NCBI GenBank assembly: GCA_020629155.1
Contig: JAHDDW010000002.1
Coordinates: 62,001 to 126,000 of the forward strand
Direction: 5' to 3'
DNA length: 64,000 bases
Origin: Acidimicrobiales bacterium
Lineage (GTDB): Bacteria; Actinomycetota; Acidimicrobiia; Acidimicrobiales; SZUA-35
Numbering within the stretch: position 1 is the stretch's first letter; each line of letters opens with the position of its first letter. Below the pieces are notes generated by a model, which did not search any database, was not told the origin of the DNA, and saw nothing but the letters and a program-made list of their open reading frames with translations. Shown here piece after piece: positions 3-23,543 of the stretch. The position numbers and the translations under genes were made by a program.

Positions 3-1347
3 TCGGTCACGGTTTCTCGCAGACAAGTACCACCAGCGAACGCGACAAACCCAACAGATGCATCAACTGGGGCTCTTTCTAACAATGCAAAATTTTCAGA
101 TTCGGCTCGACTGCAAGATTGCGCCCCACGCCCAGCTGATCTAACATCGGCTCCTGCTGGCATGTTGATGCCATCAACGGCTAGTTTTTCAGGCCTTGGA
201 GCAACTCCAGCGACCTTTTGGAACGCAACGACGTTTCCGGCTGGGAACCAGTTAGATGCAGCTTTGTTTGAATTTTCTCGACCTGTTGGAGCATTTGGTT
301 TATGGTTTGGCGATCTTGAAACCCGGCCACCAGTTACTGGTGGCGGCGGCGCATTGGCTATCGTCAAGTTACTTGACAGTGCGGGTAATGTCATCCAGTC
401 GACAGAGATTTTACCTGATGAAGCTAGCATCGATGACAGCGTTTGTGGAGGCGCAGCGCAATCAACTGACAATCTTGGCTGCGGTAACCAAGCATCTCGA
501 TTTATCGGGTTCGTTGAACCCACAGAGTCAGTCGCATCGATGCTTGTGATCGTTGGCGAAGATGATTCATGCGCCCAAGCTAGCCAATGTGACGGCATTA
601 CTGAGTATCTTTCATGGATAGGGCCAATGCTTGCCGAGCCACAACCCGACCTTACAGTCACAAAGACGCTGGCTGCTCCTGCGCCCCAAGCAGTGGGCGA
701 CCCTGTTTCGTGGACTATAACGGTGTCTAACATTGGGCAGCGTCATGCCGCAGCGGGCTGGAGCGTCACTGACGTATTTGACTCAGGCGTCAGCGGTGTG
801 ACGCTAAGTGGAAACGCAACCGAGGTTGACTGTAGCGCAATAACTAGTTGTGTTGGGTTGATGCAATTAGACGAAAGTGATTCAATTACATAACAGCCAG
901 CGGCATCCACGAAGCGGCCTATGGAGTTGATGTTCACAACGCTGCGTATGTCCTGCCGAAGGTGATATTACTGAACTTGTTATAGAAGGAACACCACCAA
1001 ACCCAGACGAAAACAGCGCCGAAACTGAAACAAATAACGACGCAAACGCAAAACAGATCTCAGAACCTCCGCCAGAGACTACAACAACCACATCGTCAAC
1101 AACCATTATTGAAACAACAGACGTTTCAGAGACGACGGGGCAAACCACTCTAGAGCCAAATAGCACAACTGTGGCTACACAAAAAACAACGCAGCCAGCT
1201 ACGACCGTTACTAACCAGCAAGTAGACAGTGCAGAGTTAGGACAGTTAGCATTCACAGGGGTCTCATATCGATATTCAACTTCTGCAGCCTTGGTTTTTC
1301 TCGCTATTGGAATTGGGCTGGTCCGACACAAACGCCAACATCTTTAA
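3..1347 (+). pseudogene. Wall-anchored surface protein with DUF11-like domain, two frameshifts, 5' end outside window
   Basis: An open frame enters from the left edge and runs to TAA at 891-893. Its C-terminal part (from about 645) reads as a DUF11/Ig-like repeat (DLTVTKTL...GDPVSWTITVSN). The same domain continues in frame +2 from 893 (TASGIHEAAYGV) and again in frame +1 from 961, through a Thr/Ser-rich stretch (ETTTTTSSTT) to LAFTG, a hydrophobic helix and a KRQ tail ending at 1347. This tail is a LPxTG-like sorting signal, so the ancestral protein was exported and sortase-anchored. Each shift fits loss of one base, near 891 and 959. No homopolymer is involved. It is either a pseudogene or two sequencing errors 70 bp apart. 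The function of the N-terminal region is not recognised. Confidence 0.75.
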
Positions 1348-17232: not shown

Positions 17233-18357
17233 CTAGTTTTCTTCTCGTCTGCGTTTGGGCAGAGGGCTATCGTTATACCCTTTACCTCGAAGCGCAGGCG
17301 GAACATACACCCCGCGTTGATCTAGCTCTTCTTCCGCTGGGGCCCCCACAAATGCTTCCACTTTTTCTTCTTCAGGACGCATCAATGAGGTTTCAAAGGT
17401 CTCTTCTCGTTGCAGCTCAGACGGGTGCACGTTGTTTAGCACCGCTGGCACTTCTGCCGTGTTTTCTTTTTGATGCAAACGTCGATGTGATGGCGGCTGC
17501 GCCATAGCGTCGATTTGTTGCCGTATTGAAGTTTTCTCTACAACAGCGCTGCCAGCTTCTGACGGTATTTCTGACGCCGCTGTTTGTTTAGGGGTATACG
17601 AAGTGTTCGCAAGGTCGATTGCAGACTTATCGAATGACCCTAAACGGATGTAGTCTTTGGGCGACTGCGGCGTGACTATGTCTAGCGTGGCGACGGGCGG
17701 CTCTTCTTTCGCTGCTGCTAGTTGTTCGATGGTTAGATGTGTTGGCTCTGGTAGCGGTATTTCTTCTACCTGCGTTGCGAATGTCATCCGGTCGCTTTTT
17801 TTATGACGCACACTTGTTGTTTCTAACCCTAAGTCAAACTCTTCAATGGCATCGAACCCTTTGGGTTGCGTATCGCCAGCATCAAGGCCCGTTTCTTTTT
17901 GGTTTTCAGATGGTTCGGCACGTTCTTCGACAGCCACAGGGACAGCTGCAATAGCTTCTTTTGGATCAGGTTCTGCTAGCAGTTCTTCTTGCGGAGCATC
18001 CGCTTCTGATGGCTTAGCATCTGCTGCAGGTGCTGGCGTACTGTTTCTGATCTCGCTGATCGCTTCAAAACTTGGCGTGTCAACTTCGTCTTTTTCATCA
18101 TCGAAAAACGAGAAATATTTCTCGTTTTTCGCCTGTTTTTTAAGGTTCTGGCGTCGCTGCTTTACCGTTTTTTTATCGCCGATGATTTTCGGTTTCCTTG
18201 TCCCTCTAACTCCAGAGAGTATAAGGGCGCACTCTTTGCAAATCGGATGGGGTTTTGTTCGTAAGGTCACCAAGCAATCTGAGCAGAATGATCCATAGCA
18301 GGAATCACAGACATCGTCTGCACTATCTAGTGAATCGTTATGGCAGCGTTCGCTCAT
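17233..18357 (-). CDS. Zinc-finger (B-box-like) protein with long disordered tail
   Basis: This 374-residue protein has a Cys/His-rich N-terminal module in the first 45 residues (RCHND...CDSCYGSFCSDC...CKEC), able to bind two zinc ions in a B-box/RING-like arrangement. A basic segment follows (KTVKQRRQNLKKQAKNEK, about residues 62-80), then about 270 residues of low-complexity Glu/Pro/Ala-rich sequence with no predicted fold. It ends YVPPALRGKGYND...KRRREEN. No transmembrane helix is evident. Proteins with a short Cys-rich head and a disordered tail are found in actinobacteria without known function. It sits between purA and purB on the opposite strand. An SD-like GGAAAG precedes the ATG. Confidence 0.7.
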   Translation of the reverse strand: MSERCHNDSLDSADDVCDSCYGSFCSDCLVTLRTKPHPICKECALILSGVRGTRKPKIIGDKKTVKQRRQNLKKQAKNEKYFSFFDDEKDEVDTPSFEAISEIRNSTPAPAADAKPSEADAPQEELLAEPDPKEAIAAVPVAVEERAEPSENQKETGLDAGDTQPKGFDAIEEFDLGLETTSVRHKKSDRMTFATQVEEIPLPEPTHLTIEQLAAAKEEPPVATLDIVTPQSPKDYIRLGSFDKSAIDLANTSYTPKQTAASEIPSEAGSAVVEKTSIRQQIDAMAQPPSHRRLHQKENTAEVPAVLNNVHPSELQREETFETSLMRPEEEKVEAFVGAPAEEELDQRGVYVPPALRGKGYNDSPLPKRRREEN

Positions 18358-18463
18358 GTTGCTTTCCGAAAGTTAGACGTTCTAATGATGTACGTATCGT
18401 CTTTTTTCCTACCTAGCTTTAATGATGTCTTGCATTGTTTTTCTGCTGAATTACCTGGATCGA

Positions 18464-18541
18464 GAACCCTTAAAATCTGCGTGGAAATGCCCCCAAGTCG
18501 AGCGGATAAATCGAGGAGATGTATACTGATAGACATCTCCT
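18464..18541 (+). promoter_or_regulatory. Structured leader unit 1 upstream of purB
   Basis: This is the first of two related units. It reads GAACC, then a small hairpin (GCGT-GGAA-ATGC, a GNRA loop), AAGTCGAGCGGATAAAT, and a 9-bp hairpin AGGAGATGT / ACATCTCCT (18514-18541). The order, spacing and single-stranded segments match unit 2. Confidence 0.55.
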
Positions 18542-18571
18542 ATGGCTTTTCTGCTATACAGCTTGCGTAAA

Positions 18572-18648
18572 GAACCGCTACAGCTGCGTGTCAACGCGCT
18601 AAGCGCAGCGGAAATACCGAGGGGATGTAAAATTATTAGACATCCCCT
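18572..18648 (+). promoter_or_regulatory. Structured leader unit 2 upstream of purB
   Basis: The second unit starts 108 nt after the first. It reads GAACC, then hairpin GCGT-GTCA-ACGC, AAGCGCAGCGGAAAT, and hairpin AGGGGATGT / ACATCCCCT (18620-18648). Compared with unit 1, paired positions change together (A-T to G-C in the terminal stem, G-T to G-C in the small stem). It ends 11 nt before the purB ATG, next to the AGAGG ribosome binding site. Confidence 0.55.
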
Positions 18649-18659
18649 TAAGAGGCCAA

Positions 18660-20078
18660 ATGACCATAGTAAATGTTCTTGCTGATCGTTATGCAAGCGA
18701 CGAAATAACCGCACTTTTTGATAATGAAGAGCGTGTTAAGCTCGAACGCCGTTTCTGGGTTGCTGTTCTGAAAGCGCAAATTGAGCTGGGGCTTGATGTT
18801 GACCCGTCTGTTATCGCCGACTATGAAGCCGTTATTGATTCAGTTGACCTAGCCTCGATCCGTAAACGCGAAGAGGTTACTCGTCACGACATTCCTGCAC
18901 GACTGCATGAATTTAATGAACTTGCTGGTCATCAACATGCCCACAAAGGGTTGACAAGCCGTGATTTAACCGAAAATGTTGAACAGCTGACGATGTGGCA
19001 GGCGTTACAGCTTTTAGAGGGACGAACGGTTGCTTTGCTAAGCCGTCTGGCCGAAAAAGCGGCCCAATATAGTGCTTTGTCTATTGTCGGTCGTAGTCAT
19101 AATGTGCCTGCGCAACCTACAACGGTGGGGAAACGATTTGCTCAAATCGCTGAAGAGCTCTTGACGGCGCATCGAAGACTACAAGCACTGCTTGAAGGTT
19201 TTGCGTTGCGTGGGATTAAAGGCCCTGTTGGAACCCAGCAAGATCAAGTCACATTGCTAGGTTCTGGAGAAAAAGCGGTAGAACTCGAACGCAAAGTTGC
19301 GCACCATCTTGGCGTTGGCAATACGTTAGCGTGTGTTGGTCAGGTCTATCCTCGGTCGTACGATTTTGAAGTTGTGTCGACGCTTTTGCAGCTAGCATCT
19401 GCTCCCGCAAACCTTGCGTTGCAGGTGCGTTTGATGGCGTCGCACGACTTAGCGACTGAAGGTTTTCAACCAGGTCAGGTTGGCTCGTCGGCTATGCCAC
19501 ACAAAATGAATGCTCGATCGTGTGAGCGGATCAACGGTTTGTTTACTATTTTGCGTGGCTATGTGACGATGGCGTCTAGCTTGGCTGGCGATCAGTGGAA
19601 CGAAGGCGATGTTTCCTGCTCTGTAGTGCGCCGTGTTGTGTTGCCTAACTCATTTCTTGCATTTGATGGCTTGTATGAAACCTCGTTTGCGGTCCTGCGA
19701 GAATACGGCGTGTTCCCTGGCGTGATCAAATCCGAATTGACCCGTTACCTTCCGTTCTTAGCCTCGACCACGCTTTTGATGCATGCCGTGCAAAATAATG
19801 TGGGGCGTGAAGTAGCACATGAGCTTATTAAAGAACACGCAGTCGCTACAGCGCTAGCAGTTCGTGAGGGCAACGCCGACGGGACGTTGTTGTTAGAAAA
19901 GCTTGGTAATGACGAGCGTTTCCCAGGTTCTGCACAGCAACTGCGCGAACTTGTAAAAAGCCCTGAAAAACTGCTAGGACGAGCTAGTGATCAGGTCGGC
20001 GAAGTGTGCGGCGTTATAGCAAAGTTGGTTGAAGGACGTGAAGGCGACGCAAGCTACAACGGCGCCGACATCCTCTAG
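18660..20078 (+). CDS. purB: Adenylosuccinate lyase
   Basis: PurB cleaves adenylosuccinate to AMP and SAICAR to AICAR, releasing fumarate. The 472-residue protein belongs to the fumarase/aspartase superfamily. It has HKGLTSRDLTEN near residue 98, GRSHNVPAQPTT near 146 (catalytic His region), and the signature GSSAMPHKMN near 276-285 with the catalytic serine loop. The start is preceded by AGAGG and by the tandem structured leader at 18464-18648, which probably controls it. The TAG stop (20076-20078) is part of the CTAG end of repeat copy D. It supplies the step after PurA. Confidence 0.96.
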   Translation: MTIVNVLADRYASDEITALFDNEERVKLERRFWVAVLKAQIELGLDVDPSVIADYEAVIDSVDLASIRKREEVTRHDIPARLHEFNELAGHQHAHKGLTSRDLTENVEQLTMWQALQLLEGRTVALLSRLAEKAAQYSALSIVGRSHNVPAQPTTVGKRFAQIAEELLTAHRRLQALLEGFALRGIKGPVGTQQDQVTLLGSGEKAVELERKVAHHLGVGNTLACVGQVYPRSYDFEVVSTLLQLASAPANLALQVRLMASHDLATEGFQPGQVGSSAMPHKMNARSCERINGLFTILRGYVTMASSLAGDQWNEGDVSCSVVRRVVLPNSFLAFDGLYETSFAVLREYGVFPGVIKSELTRYLPFLASTTLLMHAVQNNVGREVAHELIKEHAVATALAVREGNADGTLLLEKLGNDERFPGSAQQLRELVKSPEKLLGRASDQVGEVCGVIAKLVEGREGDASYNGADIL

Positions 20079-20441: not shown

Positions 20442-21374
20442 ATGAATGACTATCTTTATCCAATTGGAGAGCCAGGGAAGAAATGGGGTGCTGTTGAAAA
20501 GCAGGCGTGGCATAACCAACAGACAATAAAACGCTCATATAAAGCCGAAGTACTCGACAAACTTACAGAGCTTGAAACGCTGTTCGAAATCGAGCAATAC
20601 GGAGAGTTATCATACCAAGCCGACAACTATCCACTTTTTGCGTTGCGCAGTCGTTCTTGGCATGAACGCAAGCCAATCGCTTTCATCACAGGCGGTGTAC
20701 ACGGCTACGAGACGAGCGGGGTACAAGGTGCACTGCGGTTTGCTGCAAGAGAGGCAGAAACCTATAGCAAAGATTTCAATATCATTGTCGCTCCATGCGT
20801 CAGCCCATGGGGTTATGAGACTATCAACCGTTGGAACCCCGACGCAATCGACCCAAATCGATCGTTTGTGCCAAATAGTCCAGCGAAAGAATGCGAACTG
20901 TTGATGACCTATGTCAAAAATCTAAACATTCAGATTACTGCGCACCTAGATTTGCACGAAACAACAGATACTGACAATAGCGAGTTTAGGCCAGCGCTAG
21001 CTGCTCGTGACGCTACAACACACGATGTTTGGGATATCCCAGATGGTTTTTATCTCGTCGGCAACACCCAAAAACCTGCAAAAGAATTCCAGAAACGAAT
21101 CATCGACGGTGTGAGTGAAGTAACGCACATAGCACCTGCTGACGAAAACGAAATGTTAATCGGCTCGCCGATCACGCAAAAAGGCGTTATCAACTACAGA
21201 TTCCAAACACTAGGCATGTGTACTGGCTTCACAAATTCTCCTTTTAGTACATTAACTGAAATGTATCCAGATAGCCCAAGAGCCGACGACGAGATTTGCA
21301 TTCAGGCACAAGTCAAAGCAGTAACCAGCGGCTTAGACTACATTCGCGAGCAATCCCACGAACAAAACACCTGA
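20442..21374 (+). CDS. M14-type zinc carboxypeptidase-like protein (copy 1)
   Basis: This 310-residue protein has an M14/succinylglutamate desuccinylase-like zinc site: H-x2-E in TGGVHGYETSG (about residues 82-92), a distal His in HLDLHET (about 170-176) and a candidate catalytic Glu in TEMYPD near 280. No signal peptide is present, so it is probably cytosolic and could trim a peptide or an N-acyl amino acid. A paralogue lies at 22620-23543, with very similar N- and C-termini and a more divergent middle (about residues 185-260), which may mean different substrates. AAAGGA precedes the ATG. Confidence 0.75.
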   Translation: MNDYLYPIGEPGKKWGAVEKQAWHNQQTIKRSYKAEVLDKLTELETLFEIEQYGELSYQADNYPLFALRSRSWHERKPIAFITGGVHGYETSGVQGALRFAAREAETYSKDFNIIVAPCVSPWGYETINRWNPDAIDPNRSFVPNSPAKECELLMTYVKNLNIQITAHLDLHETTDTDNSEFRPALAARDATTHDVWDIPDGFYLVGNTQKPAKEFQKRIIDGVSEVTHIAPADENEMLIGSPITQKGVINYRFQTLGMCTGFTNSPFSTLTEMYPDSPRADDEICIQAQVKAVTSGLDYIREQSHEQNT

Positions 21375-22101: not shown

Positions 22102-22425
22102 ATGGATGCAGCAAAAAAGAAAAAACTCGAAGAAAAAGGCTGGACAGTAGGGGACACCTCCGACTTTCTCGGCCTTACCACCGAAGAAACAATCTACACA
22201 GATCTAAAAGTCACATTAGGCACCGTCCTTAAACAAGTACGCGAACGAAACAAAGCCACACAAAAAGACGCCGCCGCCCTAAGTAAAACCAGCCAATCGA
22301 GAATAGCTAACCTGGAAGCAGGCGACCCATCAGTCACAATCGACCGACAAATAAAAGCACTCCTATCAATAGGCGGCACAAAAGCCGATCTATCACAAGC
22401 AATAAACCAACTCACAAAAATCTAA
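22102..22425 (+). CDS. higA: HigA-type XRE antitoxin
   Basis: The 107-residue protein carries a Lys/Glu-rich N-terminus, the family segment DFLGLTTEET and a helix-turn-helix of the XRE type at about residues 45-100 (RNKATQKDAAALSKTSQSRIANLEAG). It should bind the inverted repeat at 21738-21757 and neutralise HigB. It is intact although the toxin gene has a stop codon, as expected when the toxin decays first. The promoter is upstream of the toxin. Confidence 0.8.
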   Translation: MDAAKKKKLEEKGWTVGDTSDFLGLTTEETIYTDLKVTLGTVLKQVRERNKATQKDAAALSKTSQSRIANLEAGDPSVTIDRQIKALLSIGGTKADLSQAINQLTKI

Positions 22426-22619: not shown

Positions 22620-23543
22620 ATGAATGACTATCTCTATCCAATTGGCAAACCAGGGAAAAAATGGGGCACCACTGAAAAGCAGACATGGCTTAAACAACAG
22701 ACAATAAAACGCTCATACAAAACCGAGGTACTCGACAAACTCCCACAACTCAAAACACTATTTGAGATCAAACAATACGGCGAGTTAGTCTATGAAGCTA
22801 GCAACTATACACTTTTTGCGTTACACAGCCGTTCGTGGCAGGACAAGAAACCAGTCGCTTTCATCACAGGCGGAGTACACGGCTACGAAACAAGCGGTGT
22901 ACAAGGCGCACTACGATTTGCCGCAACAGAAGCCGAAACCCATAACAAAAATTTCAATATTATTATCGCTCCATGCGTCAGCCCCTGGGGCTATGAAACC
23001 ATCAACCGCTGGAACCCAGACACAATCGACCCAAACCGATCATTCATAACAAACAGCCCAGCAAAAGAATGCGAACTACTGATGACCTACATCGATGCCC
23101 TAAACGTACAAATTGCTGCACACCTCGACCTACACGAAACAACAAACAGCGATAGAGATGAATTTGAGCCGGCATTGGCTGCTCGCGACGGCAAGACACA
23201 CAGCTCTAGCGACATTCCAAACGGTTTCTATGTTGTCTGCGATGCCAGCAAACCCGCAAAAATGTTTCAGGCAGATGTTATTAAGGGTGTCAGCAAAGTG
23301 ACGCCTATTGCACAGGCTGATAAAGACGCCATGATTATCGGAAGATCGATTTTGCAAGATGGCGTTGTCTGTTACCAACCTGACGCGCTAGGGCGATGCG
23401 CAAGTTTCACAGGCGCTCCATATAGCACCACGACAGAAATGTATCCAGATAGCCCAAGAGTCGACGACGAGATTTGCATTCAGGCACAAGTCAAAGCAGT
23501 AACCAGCGGCTTAGACTACATTCGCGAGCAATCCAGCGAGTAA
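22620..23543 (+). CDS. M14-type zinc carboxypeptidase-like protein (copy 2)
   Basis: The 307-residue paralogue of the 20442 gene keeps the zinc-site motifs GGVHGYETSG and HLDLHET and the TEMYPD segment. Residues 1-140 and the last 40 are nearly the same in both copies; the middle differs (ARDGKTHSSSDIPNGFYVV). Upstream sequence (caagcaattgaag...gtttaaagga) and downstream sequence (aaaacacctgacataccct...acgaagac) are also shared. The duplicated unit therefore runs from the leader to just before the lysC -10 box. lysC follows 41 nt after the stop. Confidence 0.75.
   Translation: MNDYLYPIGKPGKKWGTTEKQTWLKQQTIKRSYKTEVLDKLPQLKTLFEIKQYGELVYEASNYTLFALHSRSWQDKKPVAFITGGVHGYETSGVQGALRFAATEAETHNKNFNIIIAPCVSPWGYETINRWNPDTIDPNRSFITNSPAKECELLMTYIDALNVQIAAHLDLHETTNSDRDEFEPALAARDGKTHSSSDIPNGFYVVCDASKPAKMFQADVIKGVSKVTPIAQADKDAMIIGRSILQDGVVCYQPDALGRCASFTGAPYSTTTEMYPDSPRVDDEICIQAQVKAVTSGLDYIREQSSE

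Follow-up and report, generated by a model that had tools for sequence, protein, structure and literature searches.

Two similar structured units lie in tandem directly upstream of an ORF in the genome of an Acidimicrobiales bacterium. We take this ORF to be purB (adenylosuccinate lyase) from its protein similarity and the neighboring purA-like ORF. Do the units form a leader that controls the gene, or do they belong to something else that happens to lie there? A first reading, made from the sequence only, had proposed a ligand- or protein-responsive purB switch. We analyzed the locus within a window of 64 kb (the whole stretch of DNA under study), the genome that contains the window (G000; 3.17 Mb in 59 contigs, ≈97% complete and 89% coding) and the genomes of relatives.

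Two Units in Tandem Before purB

The motif GAACC can be read directly at 18464 and 18572, a spacing of 108 nt, and the tandem units with their matching hairpins are present as first described. The small hairpin is GCGT-GGAA-ATGC (18479–18490) in unit 1 and GCGT-GTCA-ACGC (18586–18597) in unit 2. Both units have an AGCGGA joint (18501–18506 and 18607–18612, respectively) and a 9-bp terminal hairpin, formed by AGGAGATGT/ACATCTCCT in unit 1 and by AGGGGATGT/ACATCCCCT in unit 2 (Table 1). The paired differences that had been pointed out between the units could also be recovered, from A-T to G-C in the terminal stem and from G-T to G-C in the small stem. Folded together, the two units beat 200 of 200 shuffled sequences (z −3.7). 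Most of this signal comes from unit 2, which folds strongly alone (z −4.1), and unit 1 is weak when folded by itself (z −1.9).

R1, a covariance model of the genome-wide family built from an alignment of 27 copies (A1), matches both units (79 bits for unit 1 and 109 bits for unit 2). The coordinates given earlier mark real units but cover only part of the element, which extends in the 5′ direction to ∼18418 and ∼18543. The tandem pair ends ∼10 nt 5′ of the purB start. Its second terminal hairpin had been described as touching the ribosome binding site, but it stops just 5′ of a Shine-Dalgarno-like AAGAGG and does not overlap it. The repeats are located in the upstream region common to purB and a divergent ORF of 374 aa, and they are the sole R1 occurrence within the window. 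Two similar ORFs of 310 and 307 aa (20442–21374 and 22620–23543) are also found in tandem in the window, with a 107-aa ORF (22102–22425) between them. Both start with MNDYLYPIG, and a carboxypeptidase/deacylase-like gene seems to have been duplicated locally here.

Table 1. Repeat copies at the purB locus, their parts and the flanking genes (positions in the window).
Feature	Position	Strand	Basis
Repeat copy 1 (∼125 bp: 5′ terminal arm, 5′ stem region, core, 3′ hairpin)	18418–18542	+	R1 18437–18542, 79.4 bits
Copy 1, 5′ arm TTTAATGATGTCTTGCATT	18418–18436	+	Aligns with family 5′ terminal repeat
Copy 1, core: small hairpin 18479–18490, then CCCCAAGTCGAGCGG	18476–18505	+	Alignments A1 and A2, pair counts
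Copy 1, 3′ terminal hairpin, 9 bp	18514–18541	+	Fold; covariation of hairpin in family
Repeat copy 2 (∼108 bp; no 5′ arm distinct from the 3′ arm of copy 1)	18543–18650	+	R1 18545–18649, 108.9 bits
Copy 2, core: hairpin 18586–18597	18583–18611	+	Family model positions 40-48, 55-63
Copy 2, 3′ terminal hairpin, 9 bp	18620–18648	+	Fold; covariation in family
purB (presumed adenylosuccinate lyase), downstream gene, outside element	18660–20078	+	ORF
Divergent neighbor, 374-aa ORF, outside element	17233–18357	−	ORF, gene context

A Family of Roughly 140 Copies

A plain BLASTN search of the genome with the 206-nt region gave 46 matches, and a second query from another copy gave many additional ones. 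Using R1, at least 138 places were identified at E up to 1 (from the best 150 of 1088 candidates scored), a total that is possibly somewhat low and of which the weakest few may be chance matches. In a sample of 864 kb of the genome, R1 has 49 matches at E < 0.01. The family comprises about 140 copies in this genome.

Tandem or truncated copies were also found elsewhere in the genome (loci L039, L052, and L066). One copy at L066 (1480–1611) has an internal duplication of GGAAATACCGAGGGCATCTATAATAA, which suggests slippage at the 3′ hairpin. Solo 5′ arms (GGCTATCTCTATGTATT and similar) with no recognizable core occur at L204:17458, L209:14941, and L220:4923, some of them just 5′ of an ORF, and may be decayed copies of the repeat. 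The copies are spread unevenly over contig C58: its first 81 kb contain ∼10, and the other 172 kb yield a single weak match. GC content is similar in the repeat-rich first 81 kb and in 81–253 kb (the window from 18650 onward and beyond).

The full unit has a median length of 125 bp (about 108–125 bp) and imperfect terminal inverted repeats. It begins with the 5′ arm AAGGCTATCTCTATTTATT, followed by the stretch TTTTCTG...CAGAAAA, in which pairing is weak, then by the core CCGCTAAAAGCTGCGTGNNAACGCCCCGAGCGGAGCGGAAATAC and finally by a 3′ hairpin. The 3′ arm of this hairpin, AATAAATAGAGATGCCCTT, repeats the 5′ arm in inverted form and thus has two possible partners, the internal arm next to it and the 5′ arm; in copy 1 at purB it is likewise complementary to both. 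For one diagnostic base, the 5′ and 3′ arms agree in 34 of 41 copies (Fisher p 0.001, uncorrected for relatedness). Identity over 3 bp at the two ends was seen in 18 of 54 copies compared to 7 expected, with TTA-like triplets, a weak signal that loses significance once the number of offsets tried is allowed for.

The Core Is Selected as a Folded Strand

The strongest covarying pairs among 110 copies are 55-63, 81-101, and 84-98 (both in the 3′ hairpin), 40-48 and 43-54. Pair 55-63 has the composition CG 55, GC 30, and TA 11, with a covariation z of 24.3. Pair 40-48 (z 10.4) occurs as GC, TG, GT, CG, and TA, and its covariation may partly reflect subfamilies. Positions 40/48 and 55/63 connect the loop of a small hairpin with its 5′ flank or serve as the closing pair of a very short stem. 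The covarying pairs in the core of copy 2 at purB are G18583-U18591 (loop to 5′ flank) and G18598-C18606. In the 110 copies 90.9% of the paired cells can pair compared to 79.7% in shuffles, and 214 cells are changed on both sides of the pair compared to 69.5 (the shuffles are not phylogeny-aware). When the partner is shifted by 1 to 3 columns, pairing falls to 38–49%.

Because the base pairs covary this strongly, including the two loop-to-flank pairs, the core is selected as a folded single strand. The pattern fits RNA or DNA and either strand. Selection on RNA structure had already been proposed from the differences between the two purB units. The structural part of the sequence-only reading is correct, and the case for it is better than its author could know: selection on a folded strand stands, but the covariation does not tell RNA from DNA.

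In principle the repeats could be chromosomal sites for a protein, palindromic arrays that a nucleoid, gyrase or segregation factor recognizes in double- or single-stranded DNA. Their many intergenic copies and uneven spread along the contigs are in line with this. The loop-to-flank covariation at 40-48 and 55-63 is hard to reconcile with duplex binding, however, and this copy number is limited to one species; we consider such a site quite improbable.

Copies Lie Between Genes in Both Orientations

To identify the genes flanking the 110 copies, ORFs were scored by codon use, with the window as training set. All but three of the copies (107/110) are intergenic with a gene overlap of at most 40 nt, compared to 8.8% of random 106-mers. 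Two copies, at L055:1536–1644 and L132:501–604, lie wholly inside predicted ORFs and may be insertions in genes or gene-calling errors. A cis-regulatory leader is expected upstream of the genes it controls and co-oriented with them, yet the gene on the 3′ side of the element has the same direction in 54 cases and is opposed in 52 (p 0.92). Where the gene is opposed, the median distance between its stop codon and the end of the 3′ hairpin is 2 nt, and in 23 of the 52 cases the stop codon falls within −4 to +4 nt of the copy end. Of 104 copies, 19 lie in divergent spacers, fewer than the 34% share of these spacers in the intergenic bases would suggest, which makes the purB site one of the less usual kind. 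Since the copies lie between unrelated genes in both orientations, they most likely do not represent a switch that senses purines but a miniature mobile or REP-like element.

The purB loci of relatives point the same way. Homologs of purB are found in 59 of 61 genomes (best 67% identity), and the sequence-only reading had staked its switch on finding the motif before purB in related genomes. No match to the repeat could be found at the purB loci of 29 relatives. An Rfam search of the window gave nothing at gathering score and, at permissive thresholds, only a chance match to SNORD5 (E 4.8); the sequence-only reading had not assigned a named riboswitch class either. Placement, orientation and the empty purB loci of relatives together make it very doubtful that the units arose as a leader specific to purB. 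The short distance to the purB start and the stable fold are what one would expect of a switch that responds to a ligand or a protein. With some 140 copies at unrelated sites in both orientations, none at the related loci and no Rfam match, this main claim of the sequence-only reading is not supported, and we attach hardly any probability to it. Local co-option at purB after insertion is at most conceivable.

The feature instead consists of two copies, in tandem, of an interspersed repeat that is extragenic and species-specific. We find it likely that this repeat is a mobile element of the REP/MITE type, miniature and non-autonomous. The core would then be retained because a putative mobility protein recognizes the folded strand, and copies would be tolerated immediately 3′ of stop codons. 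Most likely those at purB are passengers, which affect transcription or mRNA stability only incidentally, if at all.

The Repeat and Its Core in Other Genomes

R1 gave no match in the genomes of 60 relatives, of which two belong to the same genus (stricter filters apply for more than 40 genomes), and the core was not found in that genus either. No match to the repeat was found in the plasmids and phages searched. As far as the compared genomes show, the expansion is specific to the G000 species.

Core patterns, both strict and loose, were run over 84,980 species and IMG/VR and gave one true match, the array L107 in an Acidimicrobiales MAG. This is a 54-nt tandem array, found with the loose pattern, directly 3′ of the stop codon of a protease-like gene; an array in genome G304 looks like the same one. 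A match in Corynebacterium is likely due to chance. The strict pattern is narrow and matches only 8 copies among 37 loci of the own genome (L039–L075), and its empty result therefore says little alone. Using a core covariance model (R2) alongside a gap-tolerant pattern, we were able to identify cores with longer loops in G063, a second genome of the L107 genus, where 55-63 is U-A, and in two genomes of another genus (G475 and G554), several of which adjoin tRNA genes. Two arrays in G475, L227 and L238, adjoin tRNA-Val and tRNA-Pro genes and are accompanied by CGAGCGAAGCGAG-type repeats. Weak R2 matches in high-GC genomes (L226 and L229–L234) look like chance and are probably in coding sequence.

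The core arrays in these two other Actinomycetota genera are short, have different flanks and lack the terminal arms of the G000 family. As the core occurs in other genera without the arms, and not in the same genus, it is older or more mobile than the 125-bp unit. A tentative possibility, which we hold to be rather unlikely, is that the ∼30-nt core itself (two small hairpins, each with a loop or base paired to the 5′ flank) is the replicating unit. It would spread among Actinomycetota by a non-Y1 mechanism, and would here have gained terminal inverted repeats and expanded to ∼140 copies.

The arrays also bear on a function at the level of the host. The repeat might be a dispersed functional RNA or terminator, transcribed from either side in the 3′ ends of genes, with hairpins that end transcription or protect mRNA and a core that binds a host RNA-binding protein. 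Such a role would fit the 3′ hairpin that often begins right after the stop codon of an opposed gene, the covariation of core and hairpin as a single strand, and the position of the arrays in the two other genera next to gene ends or tRNA genes. It is difficult to combine with the missing U-run (a terminator scan finds none at the purB units) and with the lack of an orientation preference. The repeat is also absent from the same genus, which argues against any long-kept function at given genes, and its terminal inverted repeats and tandem truncated copies indicate amplification of the element itself. We therefore regard selection for such a host function as unlikely.

Candidate Mobility Proteins and Parent Elements

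No Y1/RAYT transposase (PF01797) could be detected in the ≈97% complete G000 genome with a search that detected its positive controls, and a RAYT-driven REP was therefore rejected. The sole DDE_Tnp_1 match in the genome is a gene of 484 aa (L224) on contig C55, a stretch of 2671 bases. We presume this gene to be IS1182-like. It was considered as mobilizer, but no link to the repeat was found, and it may be a contaminant or a collapsed IS. A search by terminal repeat for an autonomous parent in the 864-kb sample turned up solo or chance arms only, and no larger element that carries these ends.

The mobile nature of the repeat is thus something we infer. A mobile repeat is the most likely reading in view of the number of copies, some of them tandem or truncated, their inverted repeats at the ends, their position outside genes and close to stop codons, and an expansion limited to this species. 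Against it stand the missing link to a mobility protein and the lack of an autonomous parent in the sample. The strong single-strand covariation of the core also counts against it, as a plain DDE-type MITE does not need it.

Comparison With Known Repeats

REPs are extragenic and found near stop codons (PMC3733652). The present repeat shares with REPs and REPINs more than 100 copies per genome, palindromic structure, extragenic position, tandem clusters and folding as a single strand, and like them it lies mostly downstream of genes and is less common in divergent spacers (PMC3733652; PMC3116915). With at least 138 copies, and 107 of 110 intergenic, it is a high-copy extragenic palindrome. Yet it is much longer (108–125 nt compared to 20–40 nt), its terminal inverted repeats are long and its core has two hairpins, and it is not a 20–40 bp palindrome ended by an unpaired GTAG or CGTC tag. 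Its consensus lacks either tag at its termini, and an antisense GTAG is found inside the 3′ hairpin. The genome also lacks the RAYT (Y1) transposase that goes with the GTAG superfamily.

The bacterial MITE-like repeats that have been reviewed include Correia/NEMIS, RUP, ERIC, and RPE (PMC2229807). Like these, the present repeat is shorter than 200 bp, non-coding and intergenic, with terminal inverted repeats and ∼100 or more copies, and their transcripts too are predicted to fold (PMC2229807). Being short, non-coding, bounded by terminal inverted repeats and present in many copies, it has the general features of a MITE. It differs in that target duplication is only hinted at (3 bp, TTA-like) and no matching insertion sequence was found. 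Its core is conserved more than its ends, covaries as a single strand and recurs, without the ends, in arrays of other genera.

Covarying hairpins and loop contacts are also seen in the riboswitches and structured RNAs of Rfam, but the present repeat has no family match there and its placement is unlike that of a cis-regulatory leader. It is best read as a new family of species-specific REP/MITE-like interspersed repeats.

Two copies of a selfish-looking genome-wide repeat can thus pass for a convincing tandem RNA motif with covariation upstream of a metabolic gene, a trap for riboswitch hunts. The family is well populated, with its at least 138 copies and the core arrays elsewhere, covaries strongly as a single strand and has no known transposase, and it therefore offers a clean case for how repeats multiply without RAYTs.
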